Below are positions 4,892 to 64,000 of a stretch of DNA of 64,000 nucleotides, in pieces. The DNA is from Manihot esculenta. Lineage: Eukaryota > Streptophyta > Magnoliopsida > Malpighiales > Euphorbiaceae. Position 1 is the stretch's first letter, and the number at the start of each line of letters is the position of its first letter. Both the position numbers and the translations under genes were made by a program. Location: assembly GCF_001659605.2 (NCBI RefSeq), contig NC_035167.2, forward strand, positions 3,100,001 through 3,164,000, given 5' to 3'. The notes under the pieces are model-generated. The model worked only from the letters and a program-made list of their open reading frames with translations, did not search any database and was not told where the DNA came from.

Positions 4892-5363
4892 ATTCATTAA
4901 TTGATTTTTTGATTTTAAAAAATAATTAAAATTTTTTTTATGTTCTTACAAATTTAAAAGATAATTTTTTTTATTAATTTTAATTATTACATATTGTAAA
5001 AAAATTTAAAATATTTGAAAAGTTTAATTAATAAATTTTTTAAAAATCTAAAAAATTAAAAAGGAAAGAAATTTTATTATAAAGTTGAAAGGTCAGTTTT
5101 GTTATTACATTACAAAATGATGAAATTGTCCAAATATTGAAAAAATAAAATTTGTCTGACTGAAATTGTAGGCAAGAGCAGGTACTGAAATGTAATTTCA
5201 CAACATTAAGTCCAGACATTGGCACAAAAATCATTTATCTTTTTCACCTAATTTTATTTTCATTTCGATTTAAAACCTCTCTAGGGTTTAAGACTTCAAA
5301 GATCTCCTACGTAGTCTGGTGCTCTTCTCTCTCCTCCTCACAAGAAGGCCTAACCGCCCAAAG
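4892..5363. other. AT-rich spacer and 5' leader of the PPR gene
   Basis: AT-rich DNA up to about 5230. It is followed by a more balanced leader containing CTAGGGTTTAAGAC (5281), close to the telo-box type motif common upstream of plant housekeeping genes. No TATA box could be assigned with confidence. Confidence 0.5.
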
Positions 5364-8300
5364 ATGTCAGTCTACCGCCTTATCCGCCGTTCCACTGCCG
5401 CCGCTGCCACCACCAAATACTATCAGCCTCTAGCTCGAGCTCTCCACTACCTTACAATCTCCCCTACGGGTACCAGCTTCCAGAATTCTGATTCTAATGA
5501 ACTGATATCATCCTTATCCAGCCCCATCTCCTCGACTCCTCTCCTCCCTAAATTCCGCACCTTTGCCTTCTCCTCCGCCGAGGAAGCTGCAGCTGAACGC
5601 CGAAGACGCAAGCGCCGCCTCCGTATTGAACCCCCACTCCACGCCCTTCAGCGTAATCCCAACCCTCCGCCTCGTGACCCCAACGCGCCTCGTCTTCCGG
5701 ACTCCACCAATGCATTAGTGGGCCCGCGACTGAATCTCCACAACCGAGTGCAATCTCTCATTCGCGCATTCGATCTTGATAACGCCTCCCTTCTCGCTCG
5801 CAACGCGGTATACACCAGAACTCGACCCACTGTGTTTACCTGCAACGCTATTATCGCGGCTATGTATCGGGCCAAACGGTATAATGATGCTATTTCGCTA
5901 TTTAAGTACTTCTTTGAACAGCATGATATAGTTCCTAATGTTGTTTCGTATAATAATTTGATCAATGCACATTGTGATGAGGGGAGAGTCGATACTGCAC
6001 TTGAAATTTATAGGCATATTATTGCAAATGCTCCGTTTAGTCCATCACATGTAACTTATAAGCATTTGACTAAGGGGTTGATTGATGCTGGGAGGGTTGA
6101 TGAAGCAGTGGATTTGTTGAGAGAGATGTTGAACAAAGGTCACGGGGCAGATTCTTTGGTCTTTAACAATATAATTAAAGCATTTCTAGACTTGGGAAAT
6201 TTAGATAAGGCAAATGAGTTTTTCAGTGAGTTGACTGAAAGGTGTTTGTGGTATGATGGCACAGTTAATGCAACATTTATGGATTGGTGGTTTAAGCAAG
6301 GGAAGGATAAGGAGGCTATGGAGAATTATAAGTCTTTTATGGATAGGAAATTGAAGATTCCTCCTCCAACTGGAAATGCCCTCTTGGAGGTTCTGCTTAG
6401 GTATGGGAAAAAAGAGGCCGCTGCAGCTTTATTTGAGTCAATGTTAGATAACCATACCCCACCCACCAACCAAGGTGTCAATTCAGAAACTTTTAATATC
6501 ATGGTAAATGGGTGTTTTAAAGAACAGGAGTTTGCTCAAGCAATGGACATGTTTAGGAAGGCAGGGACAAAGCCTGGATCAAAACCTTTTCAAATGGATG
6601 TTGCAGGGTATAATAATATTATAATAAGGTTTTGTGAGAATGAGATGCTATTGGAGGCAGAAAAATTCTTCGCAGAACTATTGTCCAAGTCGTTGTCCCC
6701 TGACGTCACAAGTTATAGAACACTGATTGATGCTTATCTGAAGGTTGAGAAAATTGATGATGCTCTAAGGATGTTGAATAAGATGGTACAAGCAAATTTG
6801 TGGGTGGTGGCAACTTATGCAACAAGGGTGTTTGGTGAGTTGATTAAGAATGGAAAGGCAGTGGATTGTGCACAAATTTTGACTAAAATGGGAAACCGGG
6901 ATCCAAAACCAGACCCCTCCGTTTATGATGTTGTGGTCAGAGGACTCTGTGAAGCAGGTGCATTTGACGCGAGCACAGATATACTGGAGCAAATGATGAG
7001 ATATGCTGTTGGTGTTCCTCCCTCTTTAAAGGAATTTGCAACCGAGGCATATACTACTGCTGGACGTAACCAAGAAATTCAGAGTGTTTTTGATGAAAAT
7101 AGGTGGAGGAACATGTCAGGACCCCCTCATGTGCAAAGGCAACCTCGAATGCCATGGGGTTCTCAAATGTCCAGAGAGCAGCCATTACGGTCACCTTCAT
7201 TGCCTGGACAAGCACCATCAGGTCAACCTCAGATGGCAAGACAGCAGCCATTTGGTCACCACCAAACGGAAGGTCAACTGCTATCAGGATCACATCAAGC
7301 GCCATCAACACAACCATTAGGTTACCATAATACTGCAGGACAGCAGTCATCATCTCATCAAATTGTGGGACAGCCATCAGGGCCTCGTCAAATGGCAGGG
7401 CAACAGCAATCATGGTCTTCGCAAATAGGACAGCAGCCATCACGGTCCTTTGAAAGAGGAGGACAGCCGTCGTGGTCCTTCCAAAGGGGGGAACAGCAGT
7501 CATTAGCATCCCATAGTATTGCAGGACAGCAGACATCTGGACCTCATCAAATGGCATGGCAGCAGTCTTCTTGGCATGCTCAATTTGGAGGACAGCAGCC
7601 TCCATTGTCCTCCCAAAGAAGGGAACAGCAGCCATTAGCATCCCATAACATTGAAAGACAGCAGTCATCTGGACCTCATCAAATGGCAGGGCAGCAGCCT
7701 TCTTGGCATGCTCAACTTGGAGGACAGCAGCCACCATTATCCTCTCAAAGGGGGGAAGAGCAGCCATTAGCATCCCATGGCATTTCAGGACAGCAGTTAT
7801 CTGGACCTCATCAGATAGCAGGGCAGCAGCCTTCTTGGCATGCTCAATATGGAGGACAGCAGCCACCGATATCCTCTCAAAGAGGGGAACAACAGCCGTT
7901 AGCATCCCATAGCATTTCAGGACATCAGTCATTTGGAACTCATCAAATGGCAGGGCAGCGGCCTAGTTGGAATGCTAAATTAGGACAGCAGCCACCATTG
8001 TCCTCTCAAACTGTAGAACAGCAGCCATTAGCGTCCCATGGCATTGCAGGACTGCAGTCATCTGGACCTCATCAAATGGGAGGACAGCATCCTTCATGGC
8101 ATTCTCAATTTGGAGGACAGCAGCCATCACAGTCCTCTCAAATCGGAGGACAGCAGCCATCGTGGTCCTTTCAAATGGGAGAACAGCAGCCCTCGGGAAC
8201 TACATATAACACCAGACATCAGCCATCTGCCTCCATGCAAATGTCAAGACAGGTATCATCTGGAAGCTTGCAAAATCTAGGCACTGTTTATCTTGAGAAA

Positions 8301-9817
8301 TACTTTTAAAAGTAGCTACAAGACTAATTGATTAAAGATATCTCCAAAGTAGTTTATTTGCAAATTTATAAATGACAACTGACAAGGATGGTTATTTTTG
8401 GATAGGGCATTATTTGCGCTGCATGCATGTCAGTAAATCCATATCTCTACCTGTTGCAGAAGGCATACTGGATACTTTCTGTTCTGTTTTGGTGATAACA
8501 TTGTAGCAATATTTTTCGATCTCTTTATTTTTTAAATGAGAATTTTAACAAACTAATGGCATAATTCTCAAGCAAGTAGCTGTTTTTTTTTTTTGTTTTG
8601 TTTTTATTAGTATAATTTCGAAAAGGCTTCACCTATAATCCTGCAGCTTGACCAATGATAAATTGCAATTTCCACATAAGCCCAGTGTTCTGATGATGGT
8701 TTTAAAAGCTCCCATGTGGTTCTACTTTAAAGTGATACTAGATGAGATGAAAAAGTTAAAGTTCATTTGTCCTAATGGAGCATGCGTGTCCAATTTATAT
8801 GTAAAGTTTGAGACCCCAAGACTACAATTTGATTTTAGCCAAATTACTGCTTTAGAATTGCACTTCCCTTCAAGGTTTGAATTTTAATGACTGTTTGCTT
8901 CACAAGAATTAATTATGTTTTTGTGTCAGTTAATAAAGTAGACAGTATAAACCTGGCCTGTTGCTTGAAATTCATTTATGTCTCGTCCTGGCTTACATAC
9001 TTTCCTCCTGCACTTTGCATCCATGAAAGTTTTAAGAGTGATGAACTGTCAAGGCGATGTTGTATACTGGAGCTCAAGGAGAAAGATCAAATGAGTGTTT
9101 TTTCACTATTTTTTTTTTATGTTGGATGCTATTGTGAAGTATTTGCTTCATCTGAAAAAGAGACGCCGAACTGCAAGTGGAAATAGATAACAACCAGAGT
9201 GGACTTATAGGTTCTCTAATCTCTATCTTGTACTCACTTTGTCAATGTATATGGAATCTAACCAATTACCCTTGTGATATGGGTCTTTTCACTTCTTCCC
9301 CCCAAGAGAATAAAAGGATAACAAGGAGAGAAGCCATAAGCAATTATAGAAGTTTGTAAGAACTCACAACAGTTCAGATATCTACATAAGTTGGTGGGAT
9401 GAAATTTTATAGAGGAAGGTATAGCATTAGCGTACTTAATTTAGAGAAAAAAGGTACAGAGGTTACCCACAATCCAAAACCAGTTGCTGGTGTACAGCAA
9501 CTTGAAAGTCTTTGGCAGTGACTCAGTAGTGCCAGAAAATTTTCTTTTTGGGTCTTTTGTATGGTAGTATATGATGAATGATGATTATTTTATGAATAAA
9601 ATTTTTGTTTGTTACTTTAATTTATTATCCTGAACCAAAACCATAATTTCTTGTGAATTACCAGTAGTCCCTGACTAATATTATTTCACTTGTGATTTAG
9701 TTTGATCCCATGGGAGGACGGCAGCCAAATGGACCCTCAGAAATGGCGGAACAGCAATCATCAGAACCCCTTGAATGGCAAGATAACCAACAGCGAGCAG
9801 CAGCCTTGCAAAGTTGA
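5364..9817 (+). CDS. GRP23: GRP23-type pentatricopeptide repeat protein with Gln-rich C-terminal repeats
   Basis: Two exons: 5364-8252 and 9701-9817, giving 1001 residues. The start is the ATG opening MSVYRLIRRS; the frame is open further upstream but without an ATG. Residues 1-60 are Arg/Ser/Ala-rich, suiting an organelle presequence. Residues about 155-550 form a run of PPR helical repeats (for example VVSYNNLINAHCDEGRVDTA and SLVFNNIIKAFLDLGNLDKA). From about 600 the protein is Gln/Ser/Pro-rich with 44-residue repeats containing the W-x(n)-QQ pattern. This order matches Arabidopsis GLUTAMINE-RICH PROTEIN 23, required for early embryogenesis and linked to RNA polymerase II binding and organelle RNA editing. 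The 3' exon is my inference: the donor after CAG at 8252 is in phase 0, and the acceptor at 9700 opens a frame with the same Gln/Trp composition (PNGPSEMAEQQ, EPLEWQDNQQ) ending in TGA. If the intron is retained, the frame instead ends at 8309 after 19 unrelated residues. Confidence 0.9.
7491..8147 (+). repeat. Five tandem 132-bp coding units (44 residues) in the GRP23-type gene
   Basis: Five units follow one another, each of the form EQQPLASHxIxGQQ, SGPHQMAGQQPSWHAQxG, GQQPPLSSQRG. Unit 4 is one codon shorter. Degenerate half-units flank both sides (about 7130-7490 and 8148-8250). Differences between units are scattered, so the array is not freshly expanded. Such arrays commonly differ in copy number between related species. 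Confidence 0.9.
8253..9700 (+). other. Predicted 1.45-kb intron of the GRP23-type gene
   Basis: Donor CAG|GTATCA and acceptor TGATTTAG|TTTGAT. The interval is T-rich with stops in all frames and no recognisable gene. It begins inside the end of the long open frame, so intron retention gives an alternative C-terminus. Confidence 0.7.
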
Positions 9818-12419: not shown

Positions 12420-15065
12420 TCAGAATCCCATTACTGTTGAGGTGAGGTTAAGCAAGGACTCCAGTGTGCTTGGATGAAACTTTCGAGCAAAGAGGTAACA
12501 AATAGATGACATCTCTGAATTGTATGAACATTCTGTCCCATTATTCCTAATAGACTGTATAAGGCTTTCTGTAACATTAACTTTCATGTAGGTTGCTGGA
12601 TGGGGCCCCCCCAGCGACCAATCGACCCAAGTTACTGTGCGATTCGCATTAAGCGGTCCATGGAACATGTTCAGATAAGTTGGAATGTAATGCTCATCAG
12701 GATAGCAGGCAGGCCTGCAATATTTCTTGAAGACAGAATAGTACTTGGTGTCTGAGACTACATGAACAGCCAGAGCCCGATGGATCTCAAACCATTGAGA
12801 CCCCTTTCTCCACTGAAAGAGCTTGATATCAGGGAGCATTTTACGGTTGTAGCGGCCACGACCATAACGAGAGGGATCATCATATGACTCGACAAAGCTA
12901 TATTCAGAATTAATGAGGTACTTGTATACAATTGGGAAATTGTAGACTGGTATGCAGCTCTCAGAGAGAAGAACAAACCGCTCATTTGAGAAATCCAGCA
13001 GGGCATTGGCTAGAAGGCGCTTCTCAGCATCAACCAGTGAAACCGTTCCCCATTCAACATGCTGAAGATGGGAAAATGAAAGGATTCATAAGAAAACACA
13101 GAACGCGATCAACATTCAACAGTAATTAAGAGTCGAGAAAAAGTTGGAAGGCAGTTAGCATGATAAAAGAAGACAATGCTCTTTTTGTACACAACAGAAA
13201 GCCAAAATGCAGTTTCTGCTCATAACAATTAATTTTCCATCACAAACATGAAAAGTATTTTATTCAAAACATTTATGAGGAAATGAATCAAATATTTTGT
13301 TTCATATATGATATGGAAATAGTCCAAAGATGGCAGTTATTTCCAGGAGCTATACTCCAAACATCTCATTAAAGAATCAACTGCCAGAAATGGTGATAAT
13401 ACTTTTGCACAAAGTGGGCATAAAAGGTCATTTGGATGTAGCTGTTAAATTTTAGCAATTGCTAACATAACCAGTACCATATATGAAATATATAGCACTC
13501 GATGCATACGCGCATACATATATACCATTACATCTTGTATAGGGCAACAGAGAGACTGAGAAATAACAAGCAATCCATTTACACAATCTGTAAAAATTAA
13601 GTTTTTACACAACTTTGATTGATAGCTATGACCATTGCCAATCCTATCAACGGCATTTCTTCAGCTTATATATCAAGCTAATTAAGTTCTCATCAGAACA
13701 AATCATCGCATAACAAAATGAATAAAGAACATTGCCTTTAAAAATTTAAACACACTCCTCTACTTAATTCAACTAAGCCTCAGCATCAAACTAGTTTAGT
13801 TTAACTGAATCGTCCATCCAAAGCTGGACGCACCGATCTAGAAGCTAAAACACTAGAGTCAATTCCACTCTTCAATATTATTGCATAAGATGGCTATTAA
13901 TGCCTGAACTTTCACCCTTCCAATTATAAGTCATACACTACTTTCAAATTTTTCAGTTTCACTATTGCTTCTAAATCTTGGCATAAGCATCTTTAGACAC
14001 TCTAACTTGACAGACAAGGATAGCAAACAACTTTAGTATACATATGGTATCAAAGTTGTGTAGAAATTTTAGCTCTATTAATCATGTCAATGGATCTCTC
14101 TATATCTAGCAAGTGCATAATGTCTTAAACTGCTACGAGCTTTTCCTGGCTGTGAATTGAATTAGCTAACCTTCAGAAGACAATCTCCATAAACTCATCA
14201 TTCATTATCATGTTCATATAGCAAACTTTGACTGTCCAGCTGTCTCCTTAATAAATTTATAGATCTCTAATAAAAATATGTAAATAAAGTTAGTTGCCTT
14301 CCATCCCACTTAATACTTTTTCTACTTATTAGGATAATAATTCAACCTATAAAGAATCAAATCTACCAAATGTATATACCATGTCATTCCCAATAATAAT
14401 CCACACAAAGCCAAAATGCTAATAACTCAAAAATATAAGCATCAGCGAGAATCATCAGAAACCAAAAGCTAAGAACAGCCGGCTACAGTTCATACCTGAC
14501 TCGGTATTTGCCTACTGTAGAATGGAGAATCCCTTGAAACATTGAGCACATAGTCCTCAGGCGTATGGATATAGATAGAGAAATACTTCTCATGACCTCT
14601 AAAGAACCTCTCCCACAATGGCAACATAGGCAAAGGCCCTCTAGTCAAAAACATGAAAGCCACTTTAGGCAATCTATCAAAGGGATACTCTTCCTTAGTT
14701 GGCATCAAAGAAGCCCTCCAAAAAAGCTCCTCATCAGTCATACCATGAGTCAAGTTGTTTGGATGAAGAAACGTATCCATACTAAAACAATCGACCTTCT
14801 TACAAGGTTTCAAAATTGTGCAATTACTAGCTGGGAATTTTGTTGCTGCTATGTTATTATTGAAGAACAGGCGAGCTTGTGAAGTGAAGTACTGATTGAT
14901 TTGAGAACTTGTTGCTAAACCCATTATCATACCCGCCATAAAAACAACTAAAAAAGATAATATTTGCACCAGTTTTAGCAAACCCGTGTGCCTATCTGAT
15001 CTATCTTCCTTGTCTCCTATTTGCCGTGCCATTTCTTTCCCCCTTTTGTTTCTCACTCCATTCAA
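12420..15065 (-). CDS. BC10-like GT14 / Core-2 branch-type glycosyltransferase
   Basis: Two exons on the minus strand: 14496-15065 and 12420-13061, joined in phase 0 to 403 residues, the usual length for this family. A short basic N-terminus is followed by one membrane anchor at about residues 29-51 (LLKLVQILSFLVVFMAGMIM), the layout of a type II Golgi protein. The luminal part has KVAFMFLTRGPLPMLPLWERF, SESCIPVYNF, SFVESYDDPSRYGRGRY, QWRKGSQWFEIHRALAV and CRPACYPDEHYIPTYLN, all typical of the plant DUF266/Branch family. The rice relative BRITTLE CULM 10 affects wall composition and arabinogalactan proteins; the acceptor of this enzyme is not known. The start could also be the second Met 11 codons in (MARQIGDKED). 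The single 1.4-kb intron is 13062-14495. Confidence 0.93.
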
Positions 15066-39937: not shown

Positions 39938-40490
39938 AGCCACACACTGTCGCCTGCGACTGATTCGATTGCTCTCTCGATCAATTCCAGACAGAAAGGA
40001 TCATCAAAACTGATTTTTTTTTTTTTTAAAGAAAAAAAATCAATCCAAAAACAACATTACAGACTTAAAGTCATGCGACGTGGCAAGAAATGGTGCCAGA
40101 AATTTATTTTTTAGTATAATCGAAAAGTAAATTAATTTTAATTCTTACAACTTACCCAAATTTTCAGTAAATTTAAACATTTAATCCATATTTTTCCATC
40201 ATTCAATTACAATTTTCAGTCATTTGAGTTTAATTTTAAAAGTTAAAAAAATATTATTTTAAATAACATTAAAAAATAATGTACAAAAAATTATTTTATT
40301 AATTTGTCCTATTATAACTAAGTAAAAAGTAATTTTAAATAATTTTTTTAATATTTTTTAAATACTAATTGTTTTAAGAATGTGCTTTTTCTTATTTAAA
40401 AAAACTGTGGCTCTATGGTGCTTACCAAACGCAACGTTTCAAGCTGTGGCAGCTTTGTAATATTTGAGAACTCCAATGGTTATCTCATCA
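39938..40490. other. Divergent intergenic region between FemAB-like and RPS16 genes
   Basis: The two genes are divergent, 653 bases apart from start codon to start codon. Bases near 40012-40045 form a T14/A8 foldback, and 40130-40400 is AT-rich. The FemAB-like promoter must lie in the left half, but no element could be assigned. Confidence 0.5.
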
Positions 40491-40496
40491 TAAGCG

Positions 40497-40551
40497 AAAA
40501 GCCCTAGCACCGCAGTATATAAACCTGCGTCCGTCTGTTCGATTTTCTTTC
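40497..40551 (+). promoter_or_regulatory. Core promoter of RPS16: telo-box-like motif, TATA box, pyrimidine-rich start
   Basis: AAAAGCCCTAGCA (40497-40509) resembles the telo/site-II-associated AAACCCTA element of plant ribosomal protein promoters. TATATAAA lies at 40516-40523, and a CT-rich tract (about 40540-40550, GATTTTCTTTCG) about 25-30 bases on fits a TOP-like initiation site. ATG follows at 40591, giving a leader of about 45 bases. Confidence 0.6.
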
Positions 40552-40590
40552 GTGTCGCTCAGTTTCTTCATCTTCCTGCAATCCCTAGCA

Positions 40591-41034
40591 ATGGAAGCCT
40601 CAGCAACACGAATGGAGTCCGTTCAGTGCTTCGGGCGGAAGAAGACCGCCGTAGCCGTCACTTATTGCAAGCGTGGGAGAGGACTAATTAAGATCAACGG
40701 CTGCCCAATCGAACTGGTGGAGCCTGAGATCCTCCGTTTCAAGGCTTACGAGCCCATCCTCCTTCTCGGGAGACATCGTTTCGCCGGCGTCGACATGCGT
40801 ATTCGCGTCAAAGGTGGTGGGCACACCTCCCAAATCTATGCTATCCGCCAGAGCATAGCTAAAGCTCTTGTAGCCTTCTACCAGAAGTACGTGGACGAGC
40901 AGAGTAAAAAGGAGATCAAGGACATTTTGGTCAGGTATGATAGGACTTTGCTTGTGGCTGATCCTAGACGCTGTGAGCCCAAGAAGTTCGGTGGTCGTGG
41001 TGCTCGTGCCAGGTTCCAGAAGAGTTACCGTTAA
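40591..41034 (+). CDS. RPS16: 40S ribosomal protein S16 (uS9)
   Basis: Single intronless frame of 147 residues. The frame is open upstream of 40591 but lacks an ATG there, so [10 protein letters not shown] is taken as the start; the second Met (40612) is an alternative. The body carries uS9 signatures: [20 protein letters not shown] at the start, [40 protein letters not shown], and the C-terminal [20 protein letters not shown] ending in the invariant YR that reaches the ribosomal P-site tRNA. It is part of the small subunit head. Plant S16 is about 146 residues and commonly intronless, as here. The compact promoter just upstream fits strong constitutive expression. Confidence 0.98.
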
Positions 41035-50811: not shown

Positions 50812-53800
50812 CTAAAAGCCAGAATCCTTCACAAATAGATGATTCAAAAGCTGAGAAGCAGTTGGACGCTTTTTTGGATCAACTTGCAGGCATTTCATGA
50901 TAAAATCTCGTGCATTCTCTGATAGAGGATAATTAGGAAGATGATCTAGAAGCATTCCATTTTCAACCTCCGATTGCAGATTCTCATTCTCATTCACATG
51001 AGAGTATGGAAAATCCCTGATTAACATCTCCAAGACAGTGCAGCCAAGGCTCCAAATATCAGATTCAACTCCATATTCTTTATTCTTTTTTATAACCTCT
51101 GGAGCTATCCAGTGTATTTTCCCATGGCGAGAATTCAAGAAAGGAATTAAGTCTGTCACTCTTGCCAATCCAAAATCTGTAATTTTCACACATCCTTTCT
51201 CATCCACCAGTATATTTGCACATTTAATGTCTTTGTGAGGTACCTTTCGCTCATGGAGATACTTCAAACCTTCCAGTATCTGTTTGGTGTAATGAGAGAC
51301 TTGAGAATCTCTCAGTTCAAACTTTTTATATACTTGTCTGAGAGAACCTGTACTTACAAGCTGAAGGAAAATATGGATCTTCGACTTATACTCCTTAGTG
51401 CCATAATATTTGACTATGTTTGGATGACTTAACTGACACAGTAAATTAACCTCTTGCTGCACATGGTCATGTTCTAGTTTAATTTTGTCAACTTCTTCTT
51501 TATTATCATGTTCAATTTCCTTTACATCTTGATGAATTCTGTCAGTTTCTTGTTTACTTTCGTCAATTTCTTCTTTATTTTCAACTTGTACTTCCTTTAC
51601 CGCAAAAAAGAAACCATCATCTGCATATCCCCTGTACACGTTTCCTGTAATCCCTCCTCCCAAAGTCTTCCTGCGATCCATTCGCCACCTTAACTTGTTA
51701 ATATTAACTCTTTGTCTATTAATCTGCCAAGTATTCAACATAGTTTCAATATCAAAATTTAATAGATAACAATGATAATCATGGTTGTACGAATAAAACT
51801 AGATATCCCAATCATGAAATTGTTAAAAGCTCATGAAAAAAAGACCAGAAACTATATAATTGCTTGAGAAATATGAGAGAACGAGCCATTTATTTTAGAA
51901 GAAGATTCCGCTAATAAAACAACTCATGTTATAATATTTTGAAATCTGTTGAAAAATTATTTAAGTTGCTAAAATAGGACCTCGTCAAATATCTCTCTGC
52001 TGAAATTTATTTTTTTTATTTCAGTTTTTTTTAACTGATTATGGTTTCAGGAATTTGTTAAATATGTAAACATACTTCATTATGTTGCTTAATTTCCTGA
52101 TGCATTAATTGAATTTTTTCTATATATAAGCAGCATTCAATTTAATAAAAAAAATGAGTTTCCAGCATAGATTTATTTTCGCCGTTCTTACTTTCCATCT
52201 CTATTTGTTTATTATTCTTTAAGAACAGACTAGCGTTTGAGATTTCTAACAATTTGGTTAGAGCTTTCTTTTTGAGGGACTTGTGAGAAATTTGTGAGAA
52301 TCCATTAAAAGAGATGGAAACTGGATTACCAAGTTTAGAAATCTCTTTTACTACCATTGCACCACATGTGTTCGATGGTGAAAATTATCACGTTTGGGCT
52401 ATAAGAATGGAGGCTTACCTGGATGCAAATGATCTTTGGGAGGCTATTGAGGAAGTTTACAAAATTCTTCGATCACCAACAATCCTAAAGTAACTCAGGT
52501 GAAAAGTCACAAGGAGCAAAAGGCAAGAAAGTGCAAGGCAAAGGCCTGTTTATTTGCTGCAGTTGTACCTACAATCTTTCCTAGAATCATAGAATCATGA
52601 CCTTGAAAACAGCCTTTGAAATTTAGAATTTTCTTAAAGAGGAGTATGAAGGAAATGAGAAAATCAAAGGAATGCAAGTGATGAACCTAGTCAGGGAATT
52701 TGAAATGCAGAATGAAACTATCAAAGAGTATTCAGATAGACTTCTCAATATTGTAAACAAGGTACGATTGCTTGGTACTGAGTTTACTGATACAAGAATA
52801 GTTTAAAAAATTCTTGTTACTATACCTGAAAGGTTTGAGGCTACCATTTCCTCCTTAGAGGATGCTAAAGATCTGTCAAAAATCAGCTTGACAGAATTGA
52901 TACATGCTTTGCAAGCACTAGAAAGGAGAAGGCTTATGAGGTCTGAAGGATCTGTTAAGGGTGCACGACTTGCAAAATTTCAATAAAATCAGAGAGACAA
53001 AAGGAAAAAAGAACAAGAAGAACAAGAAGGACAACTCATGTTCTGATTCTCCTAGGATCAATGGGGAATCAAAACATGATTTTCCTCCTTGTAAGCATTG
53101 TGGAAAGAAAGGCCATCCACCGTTCAACTGCTGGAAAAGGCCAGATCAACGGCGTGAGAAATGTCAAAAGACGGGACATCATTAAAAGATTTGCAAAAAT
53201 AGCAATTAACAGAAAAATGTTACATAGGTAGCTGACCAAGAGGAGGAGTAACTCTTTGTAGCAACATGTTTTGCAACTAGTAGCTCAAGTGACAAGTGGC
53301 TTATTGATAGTGGTTGCACTAATCACATGACATTTGATCATGATCTCTTCAAAGAGCTGGATACAACAGTGACTTCTAAAGTAAAGATTGGTAATGGAGA
53401 GTACATTGCTGTGAATAGAAAAAGCACAATTGCAGTTGAAAGCTTCTCAAGTACAAAACTTAATTCGAGAAATGTTATTTGTACCTAATATCAGTCAAAA
53501 TCTATTGAGTTTTTGGCTAGTTGCTTGAAAATGGATTCAAAGTGATTTTTAAGGGTAATCAATGCTTGATCAAAGTATTAAAAGATGAAGATGTATTCAG
53601 AGTGAAGATGAAGGAAAAGAGCTTTGCACTGGATCCTTTAGAGGAGGAGTAAACAACTTTTCCTGTAACAAATTCAATACAGAAATCTGGTACAAAAGGC
53701 TTGGTCACTTCCACCATAAAGCTGTGTTGAATATGCAGAAGAAAGAGTTAATTCAAGGCTTTCCTGGCCTTGAAGCTGATCTACCAAATTGCAAAAATTG

Positions 53801-56800
53801 TTAATATGAAAAACGAACTAGACTTCCCTTCAAGCAACTTGGAGAGCAATTGAGAAGCTGAAACTAATCCACACAGACTTGGCTAGACCTCATAGAACTC
53901 CATCTCTAAATAGGAGTAAGTATTATTTGCTCTTCGTTGATGATTACAACATAATATGTTGGATTTATTTTCTCAGGTTCAAGTCAAAAGTGGCTGGTGT
54001 ATTTTGGAAGTTTAAGAAATGGATTGAAACACAAAGTGGCCGCAAATAGTCTAACAATGGGAAGGAATATACATCAGAAGCATTCAACCAGTTCTGTGAA
54101 GTAGCTGAAATTGAACATCAACTCACTGCTCCATACACTAATCAACAAATTGGACTTAGTGAAAGAAAGAATCGTACTGTAATGGAGATGGCTAGATGTT
54201 TGCTCCACGAAAAAGACTTGCCAAAAGAGTATTAGGCAGAGGTTGCAAACATATCAATGTTTTTGCTTAACATACTTTCCACCGAAGCAATTGATAGAAA
54301 GAATCTTTTTGAATATTGGAATGGATACAAACCTTCGCTAAAAAACTTAAAGTATTTGGTTATTTATGTTTCACTTATGTACCATTGATCAAAAGATACA
54401 AGCTAGACAGACGAGCTGAAACTAGAATATTTGTAGGATACAACTTAGTTTCAAAAGCTTATAGAGTTTTTCAACCAGATTCAGGGAAAATTGTAATAAG
54501 CAGGGACGTGTACTTTATGGAGAATGACAAATGGAATTGAAAAGGAGAACAATCAGTTTCGTTTCTAAATCAAGCTTTAAAATTACAGCAAAAGGAGCTA
54601 ACAGAAGATAATATGGTTGATGATGCACCTATTAGAGGCACAAGATCACTTTCTGATATTTATCAAAAGTGTAATGTTGTTGTTCTAGAATTAGCAGATT
54701 TTTGAGAAGTTGATAAAGATCCAAAATGGATGGCTGCAATGAAGGAAGAGTTAAGCATGATTGAGAAAAATCAAATTTAGCAGCTAGTGAACAGACCTGA
54801 AGGCAGAAAGGTGATTGGAGTAAAATAGGTTTTCAGAACAAAGCAAAATGCAAATGGTTGTATCAACAAGCATAAATCTAGACTTGTTGTAAAAGGGTAT
54901 GCTCAAATTCCTGGTGTTGACTTTTCTGATACGTTTGCTCCTAATACTAGGTTAAAAACTAATAGAATGTTGTTGGCAATTGCTGCACAAAAGGGCTAAA
55001 AAATACATCAAGTAGATGTTAAATCTGCCTTCCTAAATGGTCTTCTTAAGGAGGAGATCTACGTTGAGCAGCCTGAAGGATTTGCAGCATGAAGATGGAG
55101 TATATCTATTAAAGAAAGCATTGTATGGTCTAAAGCAGGTACCAAGAGCCTGATATAGCAGAATTGATGAACATCTGATGCAGCTAGATTTCAAGAAAAG
55201 TCTTAGTGAAGCTCTCCTCTTTACATCAAGGGTGATAAAATCAATTCTGTTATAATATCTCTATATGTTGACGATCTGCTGGTTATAGGGAGCAATTCTG
55301 ATCTAGTTCAGAAGTCTAAAAAAGACATGATGCAAACTTTTGAAATGACGACTTAGGAGAGATGACATATTTTCTTGGTTTGGAAATCAAGTAAAAAAAG
55401 GAGAAATCTTTATATGCTAGAAGAAATATGCAAAAAAAATTCTAAAGAAATTTAGAATAGATGAATGCAAGGCCATGGCTATTCCTATGTATCAGAAAGA
55501 GAAGCTAAGCAAGAAGGACGAAACTGAAAGAGTAGTTGAAACTATCTATAGAAGCCTGGTAGAATGTTATAACTACAAAGCCCGATATTTTATATGCAGT
55601 AAGCTTATTATCCAGGTTTACTGATTGTGCAACTGAAACACATTTTAAGGCTGCTAAAAGAGTACTGAGATATATAAAAGGAACAATGAAATTTAGAGTT
55701 AAATTCTGTGCAAGCCAAAATTGTGCTTTGCAGGGATACTCTGACAGTGATCATGCTGGTTCTCCTGATAATATGAAAAGTACTTCAAGTTATTGTTTTA
55801 ATCTGGATTCAGGAACATTCTCTTGGTGTTCCAAATAACAAGAAATAGTTGTACAATCATCAGCTAAAGCTGAATGCATTGCAACAACAACTGCTGCAAA
55901 TTAAACCTTATGGAGTAGAAAAATATTAATTGGTCTGAAGTTGAAACAAGAAGAGTGCACAGAAATGTTTATGGATAATCAAGTAGCTATTGCCATCTCA
56001 AATAATCATATTTTTTGCAGAAAGATAAAACACTTTAATATCAAGTTGTTCTTTCTCAGATATCTGCAAAAAGAAGGTTATGTTGAACTGAAATATTGCA
56101 AAACTGATCTTCAATGGCAGACATTTTCACAAAATGTTTACCAAGAAGCAAGTTTGAGTTTTTTAGAGAAAAGTTTGGAGTTTGCAGCAATTAAGCAAGG
56201 AGTGTTGAAAAATTACTTAAGTTGCTGAAATAGGACCTGGTCAAATATCTCTGCTGGAATTATTTTTTTATGTTTTAGTTTTTTAGCTGATTATGGTTTT
56301 ATGTTGTCAGTGTCTGATTTTTAGGAATTTGTTAAATATGTAAACATGCTCCATTATGTTGCTTAATTTTCTAATACATTAACTGACTTTTCAACACGGA
56401 TTTATTTTTACTGTTCTTACTTTCCATCTCTATTTGTCTATCGTTCTTCATCTCTATTTGTCTATCGTTCTTCAAGCACAAATTAGAATTTGAGATTTCT
56501 AATAAAATCAATCATCATAAATATTTTTACTTTCCATCTCTATTTGTCTATTGTTCTTCAAGCACAAGTTAGAGTTTGAGATTTCTAATAAAATCAATCA
56601 TCATAGATGTGATAAGCATTGAAAACATGTAGGAAACAACAGTTATGTTATATTAACACAACATGAAAGCTCTATAATTACGTACCTTTAGGAATTGGGA
56701 CATTAGAGGATCACTTACATTGTTGCCTTGATTCACATGAGTTCTCTCACCAAGATTTAATTTTCCTTTCAGTGCCAAGTTAAGATCTTCAAATTCTATT

Positions 56801-59800
56801 CCCTCATAAGATAGCAGTTCGACAATTGATTTTCCAAAAACATTGTCAAAACCTTTTCTGAAAAAGGATATTTGTTCAGAGACAGAGTTGAGGAAGTCAT
56901 CTCGAATTTCATCATCATCATGAAAACGATGCTTGGCCTTATTATTGTAAAAAGATGGATATGCATCTCTTAGATCTTCTATAGAAATATGCCTTTCAGC
57001 AAGTTGCAAAAGAAATACAGGATGAAAGGCAACACCTACTTGTACTTCATGCATCAATGCCAATGCAATCACCTTACCAGAAAATTCAAAACAGTCGAAG
57101 TGTAATGGTTCCAGCTTCAATTCTGCAAAATATATTATTTATACTTAAAAAGAAATCAATATTTAATAAATTTATTCTAATAAAAAGGGATAATTATAAT
57201 TTAGCCTAACTAATAAATTTGTCTTTATAATTTTAAAAATACATTAAAATGGCCTCATAATTTAATTCCGTCAATGCAAAAGGACATTCATCAATTTTAA
57301 ACCTTTTTACCATTAGTCTGTAGTTTTTTCTCCGAATCAAAAGTTAGAATTAATATTTCAGTGACAAAGTTACGCTCCTTTTACAAATACAACACACCTT
57401 TTCTCTCTCACTTCATTTCTCCATATGCTCATCTATGAACTCACTCAAGACTTATAACTTAACGGCCTCATCAATCTGCTATACAAAATCTCCACCATAG
57501 TTAAGAGCAGTTTGCTATTCTTCCTCTTCAAACCTTGCACTGCTGAGCCTCCTCCATGACCCTGTACTGTAGGAAAGAGCGTGAATACTATAAGCAACAC
57601 AGCACTGAGGACAAACCGTTGATGTGACAACCAATTATTCTGCACAAGAATCCAACTGTTGACGTGCCGGATCATATCCCTTAAGCGCACCTTTGAGTTC
57701 TTCCACCACATACAACACCTTCTCATCCATGGCTGCCACCGGACCTTTCCACCCAGCAAGCATACCCTCTGACATGTCCTCCCAAGTGTCCTTCTCAGTG
57801 TCATAAACTAACGCTTTTTTTGCTGCATCCCCTTTTACATTCGCCATACGTAACTTCCCTCTCCAGCCTATTGTATCAATGGCGTCTCTACTAAATCTTC
57901 TATCTTTCAACCCTTTAACCTTCTCAACTGTTGTTTTTTTTTTATCATGCAAGAAATCCTATTTCTCCACCGACTTGGCCACATCAAAAGGGAGGTAAGC
58001 CCCAATCCCACTTGCCACATAGATGGTGCCATTAATAGCGCCGACAGTGCACCAGCAGTGAGGTGTGGCGAGTGGGGGGCCAAAAACCCATGTATAAGTG
58101 AGTGGATTAAAAATGAGAGGACTAGAAAGGGCAGGGAAAAAATTATGAGTGGTAGCAAGGCGGATTAGTTGGCCGGAAGCAGAGACGAATTGTACTGATA
58201 TGTAGCGAGAAATAAAAGCCGGGTGATGGAGGAGGAGATGGAGCGGCAGGTCCGATGGTGGAGGAAGAGAGGCCCACTTGAAGGACATAGGATCAAAGTT
58301 AAAGAATTGAATAGAATTAGAAAGGTCACCATGATCTGTATTTTGTATTTTGCAAGATAATGCTGGTGTAGCACTATCTAAGTTAGTGACAGATTAAGTA
58401 AGGTCATTTAAATTTTTTCAACATCAAAAAAATGAAGAGAAATAGACAATCGTCTATTTTGATTAATAGAATTAAATTACGAGAATATTTTAATGTATCT
58501 TTAAAATTATAAAAATAAATAAATTAATTAAATCAAATTATAGAAATATGATAATAATTATTCTTTATGGAAAGAGGGGTAGGACAAGCAACAATTAAAT
58601 TCTGGATTTGTATTGCTAGCAAGGATAAAAATAAAAATAAAAATAAAAATAAAAAAAATAAAAAAAAGAAAAAAGGGGTAAGATCTTACCAGGATTGGGA
58701 TAAAACTTTGTAGGATCATTTGGGCAAGCCAAGAAGAGGAGATTTTGGGGTTTGAATATGGCTTGGCATAACTTGTATAACCAATCTTGCAATTGTTGAG
58801 GACTGGTGAGTTTCTTATTTTTCAATGCCTCAAACAGCTCTTCGTCCAGAAATCTAGACCAGTGAATGAGTGGCTTGTAAAACTCTGAATCCAGTAATTT
58901 TTCCTCGGGGATCATCATCATGGTGACTAAATGCATCCTGGATTCAGCATCAATCACATCAATGTGCTTAAGAAGCCAGAGATAATCATCTTCCCTCGTA
59001 ACCTTTTCAAGTATCAGTCGTAGTGAAATCTGCTGGCTCTTTAATACAGACCGAAATTGCTCTCCTTCACTCACCACCGAAAGCTGAGAAATGCTATTCA
59101 ATTCTTCCAAAATGTCCAGATACATAAACAAAATGGGACGCAAACAACCACTTGTTTCGAATACTTGTGCCATTCTTGGTAATTGAAGAAGATGTTCCTC
59201 CATTACTGGCAACAGGAAATTAAATACATGTTTAATATCTTCTGATAAGGAATCAACTAAAGACTTGTCATCCTCATGGGCACAGTCTTCACTGCAAACT
59301 GCACAACGCAATACGCGTGAAAATGCCTGGAATTCACGAAAATTAACTTTCAATGACTCAACGTGGAGCATTGAATTTGATGCCTGAATTTGATCCAATC
59401 CGTTGTATAAGGTTCTTGCCATCTCAAGAAAGATGCGTGAAATGTCGTTTAATGCGCTTAGCTTACCTAAGGAACCGATCTTGTAGTCTTTTTTTTCCAA
59501 CAACTGTTTTAGAGTATTCCGGCATGATTTAAACAGAGGATCATTATCAGATACCTCATCTCTAAGTAAATTACAAAATTGTAATGCTAAATGTATGCAT
59601 CCATCAATAACATCTTGTGGACGATTCAATATTAGAACCATGCACAAAAGTATCAAAGCTTTAGCATGGGCTTTTTTATCTTCAATTTCTGACCTGTGAA
59701 GCATAAGTAAAGTCTCAGGGACAGAATACCAAATCATAAAAATCTCCGATTTTACTCGTCTTTCAGGAGCCAACAGCGCGGCAATCGTCAGGGCGTCATC

Positions 59801-60139
59801 AGAATTAGGATCTTCGGAGACAGATTTGTCTCGGCACATGCGACAAATGTTTGAACTCAATTGGTGAATCTCTTGCAAGGGTTCCGATGTGTCATCGCAT
59901 CCAATAATCAATTCGAGGCAAGCTTTGTCTTTAATCGAGTAGGCTTCAAGCTTCTTCTCCCGCTCTAGCTGTATCCCCTGATAATATAATTTCTGTTCAG
60001 TAACTGGAATCATAGACTTCATTAGAATTTTCTCTTGGATTGACACTACTAAATGACTAGAATACGACTGGATTTCTATTGTTTCTCCTTCTGGCAATTT
60101 CACGAATAATTGGAGTGAATTGGATTCACTGTTCGCCAT
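50812..60139 (-). CDS. Chimeric gene: ubiquitin-like domain, UPL5-type HECT N-lobe, and MEKK1-type kinase domain
   Basis: Three minus-strand exons join in phase (58690-60139 ending in phase 1; 56686-57122; 50812-51723) to 932 residues. Exon 1 has a ubiquitin-like fold (about 9-80, [16 protein letters not shown]...KLYYQGIQL), a Cys-containing CRMCRDKS stretch, and the start of the HECT domain ([30 protein letters not shown]). Exon 2 continues it ([40 protein letters not shown]) and stops after the N-lobe. No HECT C-lobe or catalytic Cys is found. Exon 3 is a whole protein kinase domain of MAPKKK type: [14 protein letters not shown] (Lys672), [35 protein letters not shown]5 regulates leaf senescence through WRKY53 in Arabidopsis; MEKK1 kinases phosphorylate MAPKKs. 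Intron 1 holds a SKIP25-bearing TIR element, intron 2 a copia element. The alternative is two adjacent genes, a truncated UPL5 and a kinase-only gene; transcripts would decide. Confidence 0.65.
51448..51582 (-). repeat. In-frame 75-bp tandem duplication inside the kinase exon
   Basis: Two coding blocks, 51523-51582 and 51448-51507, encode [20 protein letters not shown] and [20 protein letters not shown], about 50 percent identical residue by residue and spaced exactly 25 codons apart. They lie between the beta-3 Lys and the alpha-C segment ([15 protein letters not shown]). Only the second copy keeps Glu at the alpha-C position; the first has Asp. Confidence 0.8.
51947..52251 (+). repeat. 5' LTR of the copia element
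   Basis: 305 bp, TGTTGAAAAATTATTTAAG to GAGATTTCTAACA, matching 56203-56504 along its length with many substitutions and a few indels. It contains TATATATAAG (about 52121), a candidate LTR promoter. Confidence 0.85.
56203..56504 (+). repeat. 3' LTR of the copia element
   Basis: It starts TGTTGAAAAATTACTTAAG and contains an internal tandem duplication of about 27 bases (CTCTATTTGTCTATCGTTCTT twice) that the 5' LTR lacks. That duplication arose after insertion. Confidence 0.85.
56505..56605 (+). repeat. Post-insertion duplication of the LTR end plus host flank
   Basis: The last part of the 3' LTR together with the target site and flank (AAATCAATCATCATA) is repeated with a period of 86 bases, so the LTR terminus and AAATC occur twice (ending 56504/56509 and 56590/56595). 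Confidence 0.75.
57187..58564. mobile_element. TIR element carrying a captured SKIP25 fragment, in intron 1 of the chimeric gene
   Basis: The ends are inverted repeats of about 100 bp. The left arm (57187-57290) and the right arm (about 58450-58564, read in reverse) share TATAATTTTAAAAATACATT versus TATAATTTTAAAGATACATT, followed by aligned CTCATAATTTAATTC versus CTCGTAATTTAATTC. Flanking nonamers TAATAAAAA and TTATGGAAA agree at 6 of 9, possibly an old 9-bp duplication. Between the arms is a broken F-box/kelch (SKIP25) coding fragment. A TIR element carrying host coding sequence is the Pack-MULE arrangement. Confidence 0.7.
57635..58288 (-). pseudogene. SKIP25-like F-box/kelch protein fragment, disrupted
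   Basis: One minus-strand frame without introns carries kelch-type blocks of the SKIP25 family: [59 protein letters not shown], then [40 protein letters not shown] and [24 protein letters not shown] replaces the Trp codon expected after KSVEK (about 57957), and a TAA interrupts the frame near 57635. The N-terminal F-box and the C-terminal third are missing or unrecognisable. SKIP25 proteins are substrate receptors of SCF-type ubiquitin ligases. The copy lies inside a TIR element, so gene capture explains it best; a retrocopy is the alternative. Confidence 0.85.
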
Positions 60140-60310
60140 CTGTTCTGTATCAGAGAATGGCAGAAAACAAAGTTAATTTGCAAATACTTGCTCTCTCGTA
60201 TGTCACCCAAATTTAGAGTTGACAAATGAAAATAATTCAAGAATAGAACAAGCTACAGGGTTGAAGTTCAAGGTCGATAACTGCTCCAATTATTTATCTA
60301 AGTGCTTGAA
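60140..60310 (-). promoter_or_regulatory. 5' leader of the chimeric gene, homologous to the leader of the paralogue at 63953
   Basis: Read in reverse, this stretch aligns with 63735-63952 on the plus strand: shared ATAAATAATTGGAGCAGTTA, CTCTAAATTTGGGT, ATACGAGAGAGCAA and the ACAGA(A/G)CAG directly before ATGGCGAACAG. The two 5' regions are therefore an inverted duplication. Confidence 0.8.
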
Positions 60311-63734: not shown

Positions 63735-63952
63735 AGGCACTTATATAAATAATTGGAGCAGTTATTGACCTTGAATTATGGTAAAAAAGAAGAAGTTATT
63801 GACCTTGAACTTCAACAATGTAGCTTCAAGCTTGTTCTTTGCTTGAACTACTACAATTTTATTTTCTTTCTTCTTTGAGCTGCATAAGTTTCAACTCTAA
63901 ATTTGGGTTAGATACGAGAGAGCAAATATTTGCTTCCTCTGACACAGAGCAG
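63735..63952 (+). promoter_or_regulatory. 5' leader of the second UPL5-like paralogue
   Basis: It aligns with the reverse complement of 60140-60310 (see that entry). This copy carries an extra tandem duplication of about 40 bases (GTTATTGACCTTGAA at 63756 and again at 63797). Confidence 0.75.
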
Positions 63953-64000
63953 ATGGCGAACAGTGAATCGAATTCACTCCAACTGTCCGTGAAATTGCCA
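63953..64000 (+). CDS. UPL5-like paralogue, first 16 codons (runs off the window)
   Basis: The frame [16 protein letters not shown] is identical to the first 16 residues of the gene starting at 60139 on the opposite strand except for Phe12 to Ser. ATG lies at 63953 after ACAGAGCAG, in the same context as in the other copy. Only the beginning of the ubiquitin-like domain is visible, so it is not known whether this copy is an intact HECT ligase, a second chimera or a fragment. Confidence 0.8.
   Translation, partial: MANSESNSLQLSVKLP

Follow-up and report, generated by a model that had tools for sequence, protein, structure and literature searches.

In plants, UPL5 stands for subfamily VI of the HECT ubiquitin ligases (for example, Arabidopsis UPL5), and the accessible part of a HECT review, in which no word starting with kinase occurs, describes UPL5 as a ubiquitin-like domain (UBL), a C-type lectin, a leucine zipper (LZ) and HECT (PMC6918304). 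Proteins that unite a ubiquitin ligase (E3) part with a kinase have been described in animals and plants. According to the available portions of these papers, animal MAP3K1 (MEKK1), of the PHD/RING type, contains a ubiquitin-ligase-related part and a MAP3K kinase in one protein, with E3 activity reported for its PHD motif (PMC4356348), and plant KEG combines RING, kinase, ankyrin and HERC2-like repeats in one chain (PMC11020294). In this study, we analyzed a gene located in a stretch of 64,000 nucleotides (nt) of the cassava genome (Manihot esculenta; contig C7, positions 3100001-3164000; referred to as the window), whose predicted protein carries a UPL5-type front part followed by a kinase of the plant MEKK1 type (MAPKKK1). 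We propose with moderate confidence that this gene belongs to a Euphorbiaceae family having a MEKK1-type kinase exon at the place of the C-lobe exon, and that the predicted protein is a kinase aimed by the targeting half of UPL5.

The likeness to UPL5 comprises the UBL, the helical middle region and the HECT N-lobe, and a canonical UPL5 copy is kept in cassava. However, the fusions lack the C-lobe with its catalytic Cys, carry the kinase exon at that boundary and, in the clade of the window gene, have a shortened N-lobe. Their kinase is 45-73% identical to castor MEKK1 in those 24 fusions that this query matched better, but it is encoded by one exon, a UPL5 front stands in for the MEKK1 N-terminus, and the window copy carries HKD and a Lys at P+1. 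Unlike MAP3K1, the fusions belong to the HECT class and their E3 catalytic part is missing, whereas KEG is RING-type, has its kinase beside a complete E3 domain and contains no UPL5 part. A working E3 together with a kinase, as in the dual-function proteins MAP3K1 and KEG, was thus not found, since the E3 catalytic C-lobe was undetected. Kinases fused to unrelated domains are also present in plant immune kinase fusion proteins and WRKY19-type NLR-WRKY-MAPKKK chimeras; to our knowledge, none of these has a UBL or HECT part.

A first, sequence-only reading of the window was aware of no described family with this layout. As for the literature, no published account of a UPL5-kinase fusion family was found among the matches listed from titles and abstract starts of open-licence PMC papers, and the main text of a cassava MAPKKK survey, in its available part, contains no words starting with ubiquitin, HECT or UPL (PMC5668296). 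On the other hand, databases already contain the proteins themselves, labelled for example UPL5 or MAPKKK.

The window gene was rebuilt on the minus strand from exons of 1450, 437 and 912 nt, both introns being GT-AG. It encodes 932 residues in one frame without a stop, in the order UBL, helical region, HECT N-lobe remnant and MEKK1-type kinase, with Pfam matches to ubiquitin (1.9e-11, residues 11-79), HECT (1.2e-12, covering profile 36-93 of 306 only) and Pkinase (4.5e-65). The features are as follows (LTR, long terminal repeat; TSD, target site duplication; ORF, open reading frame).

58690-60139, minus strand: exon 1, with ATG, UBL (59903-60109), helical region and start of the HECT N-lobe, ending in phase 1 (gene model; ubiquitin match)
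57123-58689, minus strand: intron 1, 1567 nt, GT-AG, containing a kelch-type gene fragment (gene model, Pfam)
56686-57122, minus strand: exon 2, HECT N-lobe remnant (Pfam match 56932-57102), phase 0 end at ...MSQFLK (HECT match, alignment)
56938-57039, minus strand: putative exitron, a 102-nt in-frame GT..AG stretch within exon 2, missing in database isoform X2 (sequence comparison)
51724-56685, minus strand: intron 2, 4962 nt, GT-AG, made up of a 313-nt intron and a Copia insertion (gene model)
51947-56590, plus strand: Copia-type LTR element, antisense to the gene, with TSD AAATC at 51942-51946 and 56591-56595 (LTR repeats; Copia type from ORFs)
50812-51723, minus strand: exon 3, single-exon MEKK1-type kinase domain (PF07714 span 50836-51672) and stop (Pfam, gene model)
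51229-51237 and 51118-51120, minus strand: HKD and P+1 Lys sites in exon 3 (kinase alignment)

A single 932-residue frame over three exons had been proposed at the outset, with the reservation that the phase match at the second junction had a one-in-three chance of being accidental. Besides the GT-AG junctions and matching phases, the frame is confirmed by the database protein P0001 ('E3 ubiquitin-protein ligase UPL5 isoform X2 [Manihot esculenta]', 898 aa), which is the window protein minus one 34-residue stretch and otherwise identical, and by 17 of 17 paralog loci with the same exon order. Together with the intron-2 acceptor motif, which was found again in 13 of the 15 paralog loci examined (the exceptions being L025 and L026), these observations settle the worry about phase. 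The 34 residues absent from P0001 correspond to the 102-nt stretch inside exon 2, and a different piece of exon 2 is missing from protein P0003; N-lobe trimming by alternative splicing may therefore occur.

The same arrangement is repeated elsewhere in the cassava genome (640 Mb searched). When 130 of 1201 candidates were scored in a search with the kinase exon, the 18 best matches by E-value were located on C7 (4) and C10 (14) with 54-100% identity, the next match having 40%. Each of the 17 paralog loci read has a HECT N-lobe exon upstream of the kinase exon, both on one strand, and the two matches are 136-1051 nt apart. The wider spacing in the window gene is due to the Copia element, which split a 313-nt intron; without the element, intron 2 matches paralog introns over 203 nt at 78% in L023 (E 7e-38) and 205 nt at 76% in L022, others being weaker. 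Two of the 18 clustered fusion kinase loci have a broken kinase match: in L026 it falls into two pieces, and in L032 only the first 132 kinase residues are within the stretch read, the rest presumably being a stop-containing match ~4.8 kb further on. In L025, N-lobe and kinase are found within one uninterrupted 541-codon frame, part of which looks like a retained intron. At C7 5.142 Mb (in L023), an N-lobe exon is not followed by a kinase exon on its strand, and the opposite strand has only a 26-residue kinase remnant; this N-lobe exon is apparently a broken copy and an exception to the exon order.

Related proteins were also found outside cassava. Three database searches, with the best 120 rows of each taken and two of them scoring only candidates sharing most words, gathered 338 proteins, at least 41 of which match both a UPL5 part and a kinase part, each at >60 bits. 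By source name, 12 are from Manihot esculenta, 27 from Hevea brasiliensis and 2 from two Euphorbia species; isoforms are included and more than one Hevea assembly contributes, so the figures should not be read as numbers of genes. Thus, proteins with HECT N-lobe and kinase in one chain, which the first reading had suggested looking for in related genomes, are present among the database proteins of Hevea and Euphorbia. Among the matches listed, Ricinus and Mercurialis proteins are canonical UPL5 and Jatropha proteins are standalone kinases; given the best 120 rows per search, absence of fusions in other lineages is not proven. The window gene is a genuine gene within a lineage-specific, expanded family.

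The canonical cassava UPL5 (protein P0236; L044 on contig C8) has an N-lobe exon that closes with ...ISWFWK in phase 0 (TTTTGGAAG followed by gt), and its C-lobe exon begins 2.3 kb later. The window gene has its kinase exon at the equivalent place, where ...MSQFLK is joined to INRQ, also in phase 0. Neither the window nor any of 16 cluster stretches (L021-L036) gave a tblastn match (E<=1) with two UPL5 C-lobe queries, whereas 4 of 4 other HECT loci searched (L042 and L043 being outside the set) gave matches, the one in L040 being weak (E 0.03-0.12) and the one in L038 covering the first 34 query residues only. The genome contains 43 HECT matches; none of the 17 on C7 and C10 extends beyond profile position 206. 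In addition, no C-lobe or catalytic Cys is present in 13 aligned fusions. The claim that a kinase sits in place of the HECT C-lobe is therefore upheld. The same search gave no match to a C-lobe hidden in the introns. Intron 2 agrees in position and phase with the last intron of UPL5; direct descent is not claimed because sequence similarity between the two was undetectable.

Ratios of nonsynonymous to synonymous substitution rates (dN/dS) between the window gene and three C7 paralogs were 0.36-0.41 for exon 3 and 0.19-0.29 for exon 2, and no bootstrap (up to 500 each) reached 1 or more. When all pairs were compared (stop-containing sequences excluded, one exon 1 among them), the medians were 0.44 (0.17-1.04) for the kinase exon, 0.48 (0.19-0.98) for the N-lobe exon and 0.62 (0.45-1.08) for exon 1, based on 100 of 120, 101 of 120 and 53 of 66 pairs with dS 0.05-1.2, respectively. 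Under random substitution at 0.145 per site, the kinase exon stayed free of stops by chance in 0.4% of 2,000 simulations. Purifying selection acts on both the kinase exon and the N-lobe exon.

The kinase half belongs to the MEKK1 group, many of its standalone matches being named MAPKKK or MAPKKK1. In the kinase tree, 30 fusions and 29 standalone kinases fall on opposite sides (support 88/88, although the bootstrap had not become fully stable); 12 incomplete fusion models had been excluded beforehand, and P0138, one of 30 chosen standalone kinases, was dropped as the cutting motif was absent. In a tree of the UPL5 half (short search), 21 fusions are apart from 25 chosen canonical UPL5s (SH-aLRT 98). 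Both trees reveal the same two fusion clades for their common members, one with P0149, P0178, P0174 and P0172 and the other comprising all remaining members, the window gene included. The kinase is a single exon in 16 of 18 loci, as expected of an intronless retrogene, while the presumed MEKK1-like parent has introns: in the cassava MEKK1-like gene on C2, the kinase region forms six tblastn blocks over 3 kb. Since the entry of the kinase is common to Hevea and Euphorbia proteins, traces of retroposition (poly(A), TSD) would be old.

Established for the family are the exon order at 18 cassava loci, a C-lobe undetectable in the stretches searched, a UPL5-equivalent boundary and phase, and purifying selection. 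Beyond this, a protein that begins like UPL5 and ends in a MEKK1-type kinase suggests that this kinase is directed to UPL5-type clients. In the proposed mechanism, a MEKK1-type gene would have supplied the kinase through an intronless (retroposed) copy, the exons would be spliced together into one protein, the part from UBL through N-lobe would recruit clients of the UPL5 type, and these would be phosphorylated instead of ubiquitinated. In Arabidopsis, WRKY53 is ubiquitinated by UPL5 and can be directly phosphorylated by MEKK1, according to the available part of a review (PMC6963213). Because both proteins are tied to WRKY53 in senescence in that plant, the fusion gives a clear client prediction, with WRKY53-type transcription factors as the best candidates. 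More tentatively, one phase-0 exon swap in the spurge family may have turned UPL5 from a degrader into a phosphorylator, with phosphorylation in place of ubiquitin transfer and the targeting platform kept, giving rise in cassava and rubber tree to a fast-evolving multigene family that would give UPL5's clients another kind of mark; we regard this wider reading as possible rather than probable.

The N-terminal UBL of UPL5 is present in the window gene, and an AlphaFold2 model of the exon 1 product has a mean predicted local distance difference test score (pLDDT) of 84.0. A fold search with this model found mainly ubiquitins and barely probed the helical region; with the whole Hevea model P0004, only kinase chains were among the 50 rows listed. 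The position of ubiquitin Ile44, which we take to be a binding patch, is Tyr in the window gene and Ile in 1 of 28 readable fusion rows (42 rows), while among 117 canonical proteins it is Ile in 105 and unreadable in 10. Ordinary ubiquitin-receptor binding by the fusion UBL is doubtful because of this loss.

Several points weigh against a kinase aimed at UPL5's clients. In the part preceding the HECT domain, identity to castor UPL5 is limited to 127 of 418 aligned residues, and with a UPL5 half that diverges this fast, client binding by the front part may be lost or changed. The dN/dS of exon 1 was 0.58 against L022 but 0.78 against the neighbour L021, with 5.6% of bootstraps at 1 or more (0.81 in the all-pairs run), and some paralog pairs are near 1 (maxima 1.04, 0.98 and 1.08 for exons 3, 2 and 1). 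Contrary to an origin inside Euphorbiaceae, the fusions are not nested among Euphorbiaceae UPL5s in the UPL5-half tree, which long branches may explain. The WRKY53 link is carried over from Arabidopsis. Finally, the window kinase does not have the full motif set, as HRD has become HKD and the P+1 Thr has become Lys (GK), which makes the catalytic output of this copy less certain than that of its neighbours; its kinase may be weakened.

These two substitutions lead to the alternative that the window copy has impaired catalysis (non-RD or pseudokinase) and serves as a scaffold or decoy among active neighbours. All checked motifs are present in 24 of 42 fusion rows; the HRD position is not Arg in 7 of 42 and P+1 is Lys in 7 of 42, with both changes in six rows (P0005, P0007, P0008, P0009, P0001 and the window, the last two being one gene). 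The two changes co-occur as if linked. However, the window copy retains the VAIK Lys, helix-C Glu, catalytic Asp, loop Lys and Asn, DFG Asp and APE Glu, and exon 3 shows the constraint reported above; impairment appears rather unlikely. The description of the kinase domain as complete in the first reading has to be qualified for these two sites.

It is also conceivable, although we consider it unlikely and somewhat more so than impairment, that the protein is a MEKK1-like MAPKKK of a MAPK (immune or stress) cascade, the UPL5-derived front being merely a new regulatory or pathogen-sensing region as in other plant kinase fusions. The MEKK1-type kinase half, the clustering of the copies and the fast evolution of exon 1 fit this view. 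In addition, the UBL-HECT-kinase chain of the paralog P0002 is preceded by an NLR-type Rx_N domain (4e-25), and the exon encoding this domain, joined in P0002 to that chain, was located upstream at L024 3449-3757 (C7, 5.15 Mb). On the other hand, the conservation of the N-lobe exon in comparison with the C7 paralogs is hard to square with a mere spacer.

That the protein is still an HECT-type ubiquitin ligase, or recruits a ubiquitin-conjugating enzyme (E2) via its N-lobe, is highly improbable. Purifying selection on the N-lobe exon and the less eroded fusions P0149 and P0174, which retain HECT profile 2-221 and 2-216 (castor UPL5, 2-300), would speak for it. However, neither C-lobe nor catalytic Cys was found in the 13 aligned fusions or the searched stretches, and the N-lobe recognized by the first reading, though present, is reduced in the window gene: part of its start is gone, as are ~46 middle residues between ...YPSFY and FLNSVSEQ, an aligned stretch common to Rsp5 and canonical UPL5. 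We take these residues to be part of the E2-binding subdomain, from E6AP- and NEDD4-type structures. With their loss, and with Tyr at the Ile44 position, the suggestion that E2 could be bound through the N-lobe is not supported. The idea that two adjacent genes are involved or that the assembly is wrong, the kinase being a separate gene beyond the retrotransposon, could draw on the 4,962 nt and Copia element between exons 2 and 3 and on an in-frame Met that precedes the kinase within its open frame, but it is rejected as exceedingly improbable given the short spacing in 17 of 17 paralog loci, the L025 frame spanning both exons, and the fusions among Hevea and Euphorbia proteins.

Intron 1 contains a kelch-type gene fragment at 57635-58393 on the minus strand (Kelch_6, 2.7e-6), interrupted by a stop and flanked by inverted repeats (103 nt, 75%) at 57195-57297 and 58440-58542; it is probably a transposon-carried gene piece. 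The only match of intron 1 among 20 stretches searched was 71 nt near the intron start, in L021. Other features of the window are as follows (PPR, pentatricopeptide repeat).

63953-64000, plus strand: start of a head-to-head paralog (P0003; continues in L021)
60092-60305 and 63737-64000: inverted, 89-95% matching conserved 5' regions around the start codons of the two head-to-head paralogs
5292-8306, plus strand: PPR protein
12423-15065, minus strand: exons of a Core-2/I-branching glycosyltransferase
40468-41031, plus strand: ribosomal S9 protein

If a kinase is indeed aimed by the targeting half of UPL5, the family would represent a natural experiment in which one protein mark was exchanged for another on the same targeting module, and the sister clade of Euphorbia P0174 and Hevea P0149, with an N-lobe up to profile 216-221, would offer a contrast with the eroded clade of the window gene. 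Fusion proteins of cassava and rubber tree that databases list as 'UPL5' or 'MAPKKK' are not ordinary members of either group, a point of importance for surveys of both HECT and MAPKKK families.

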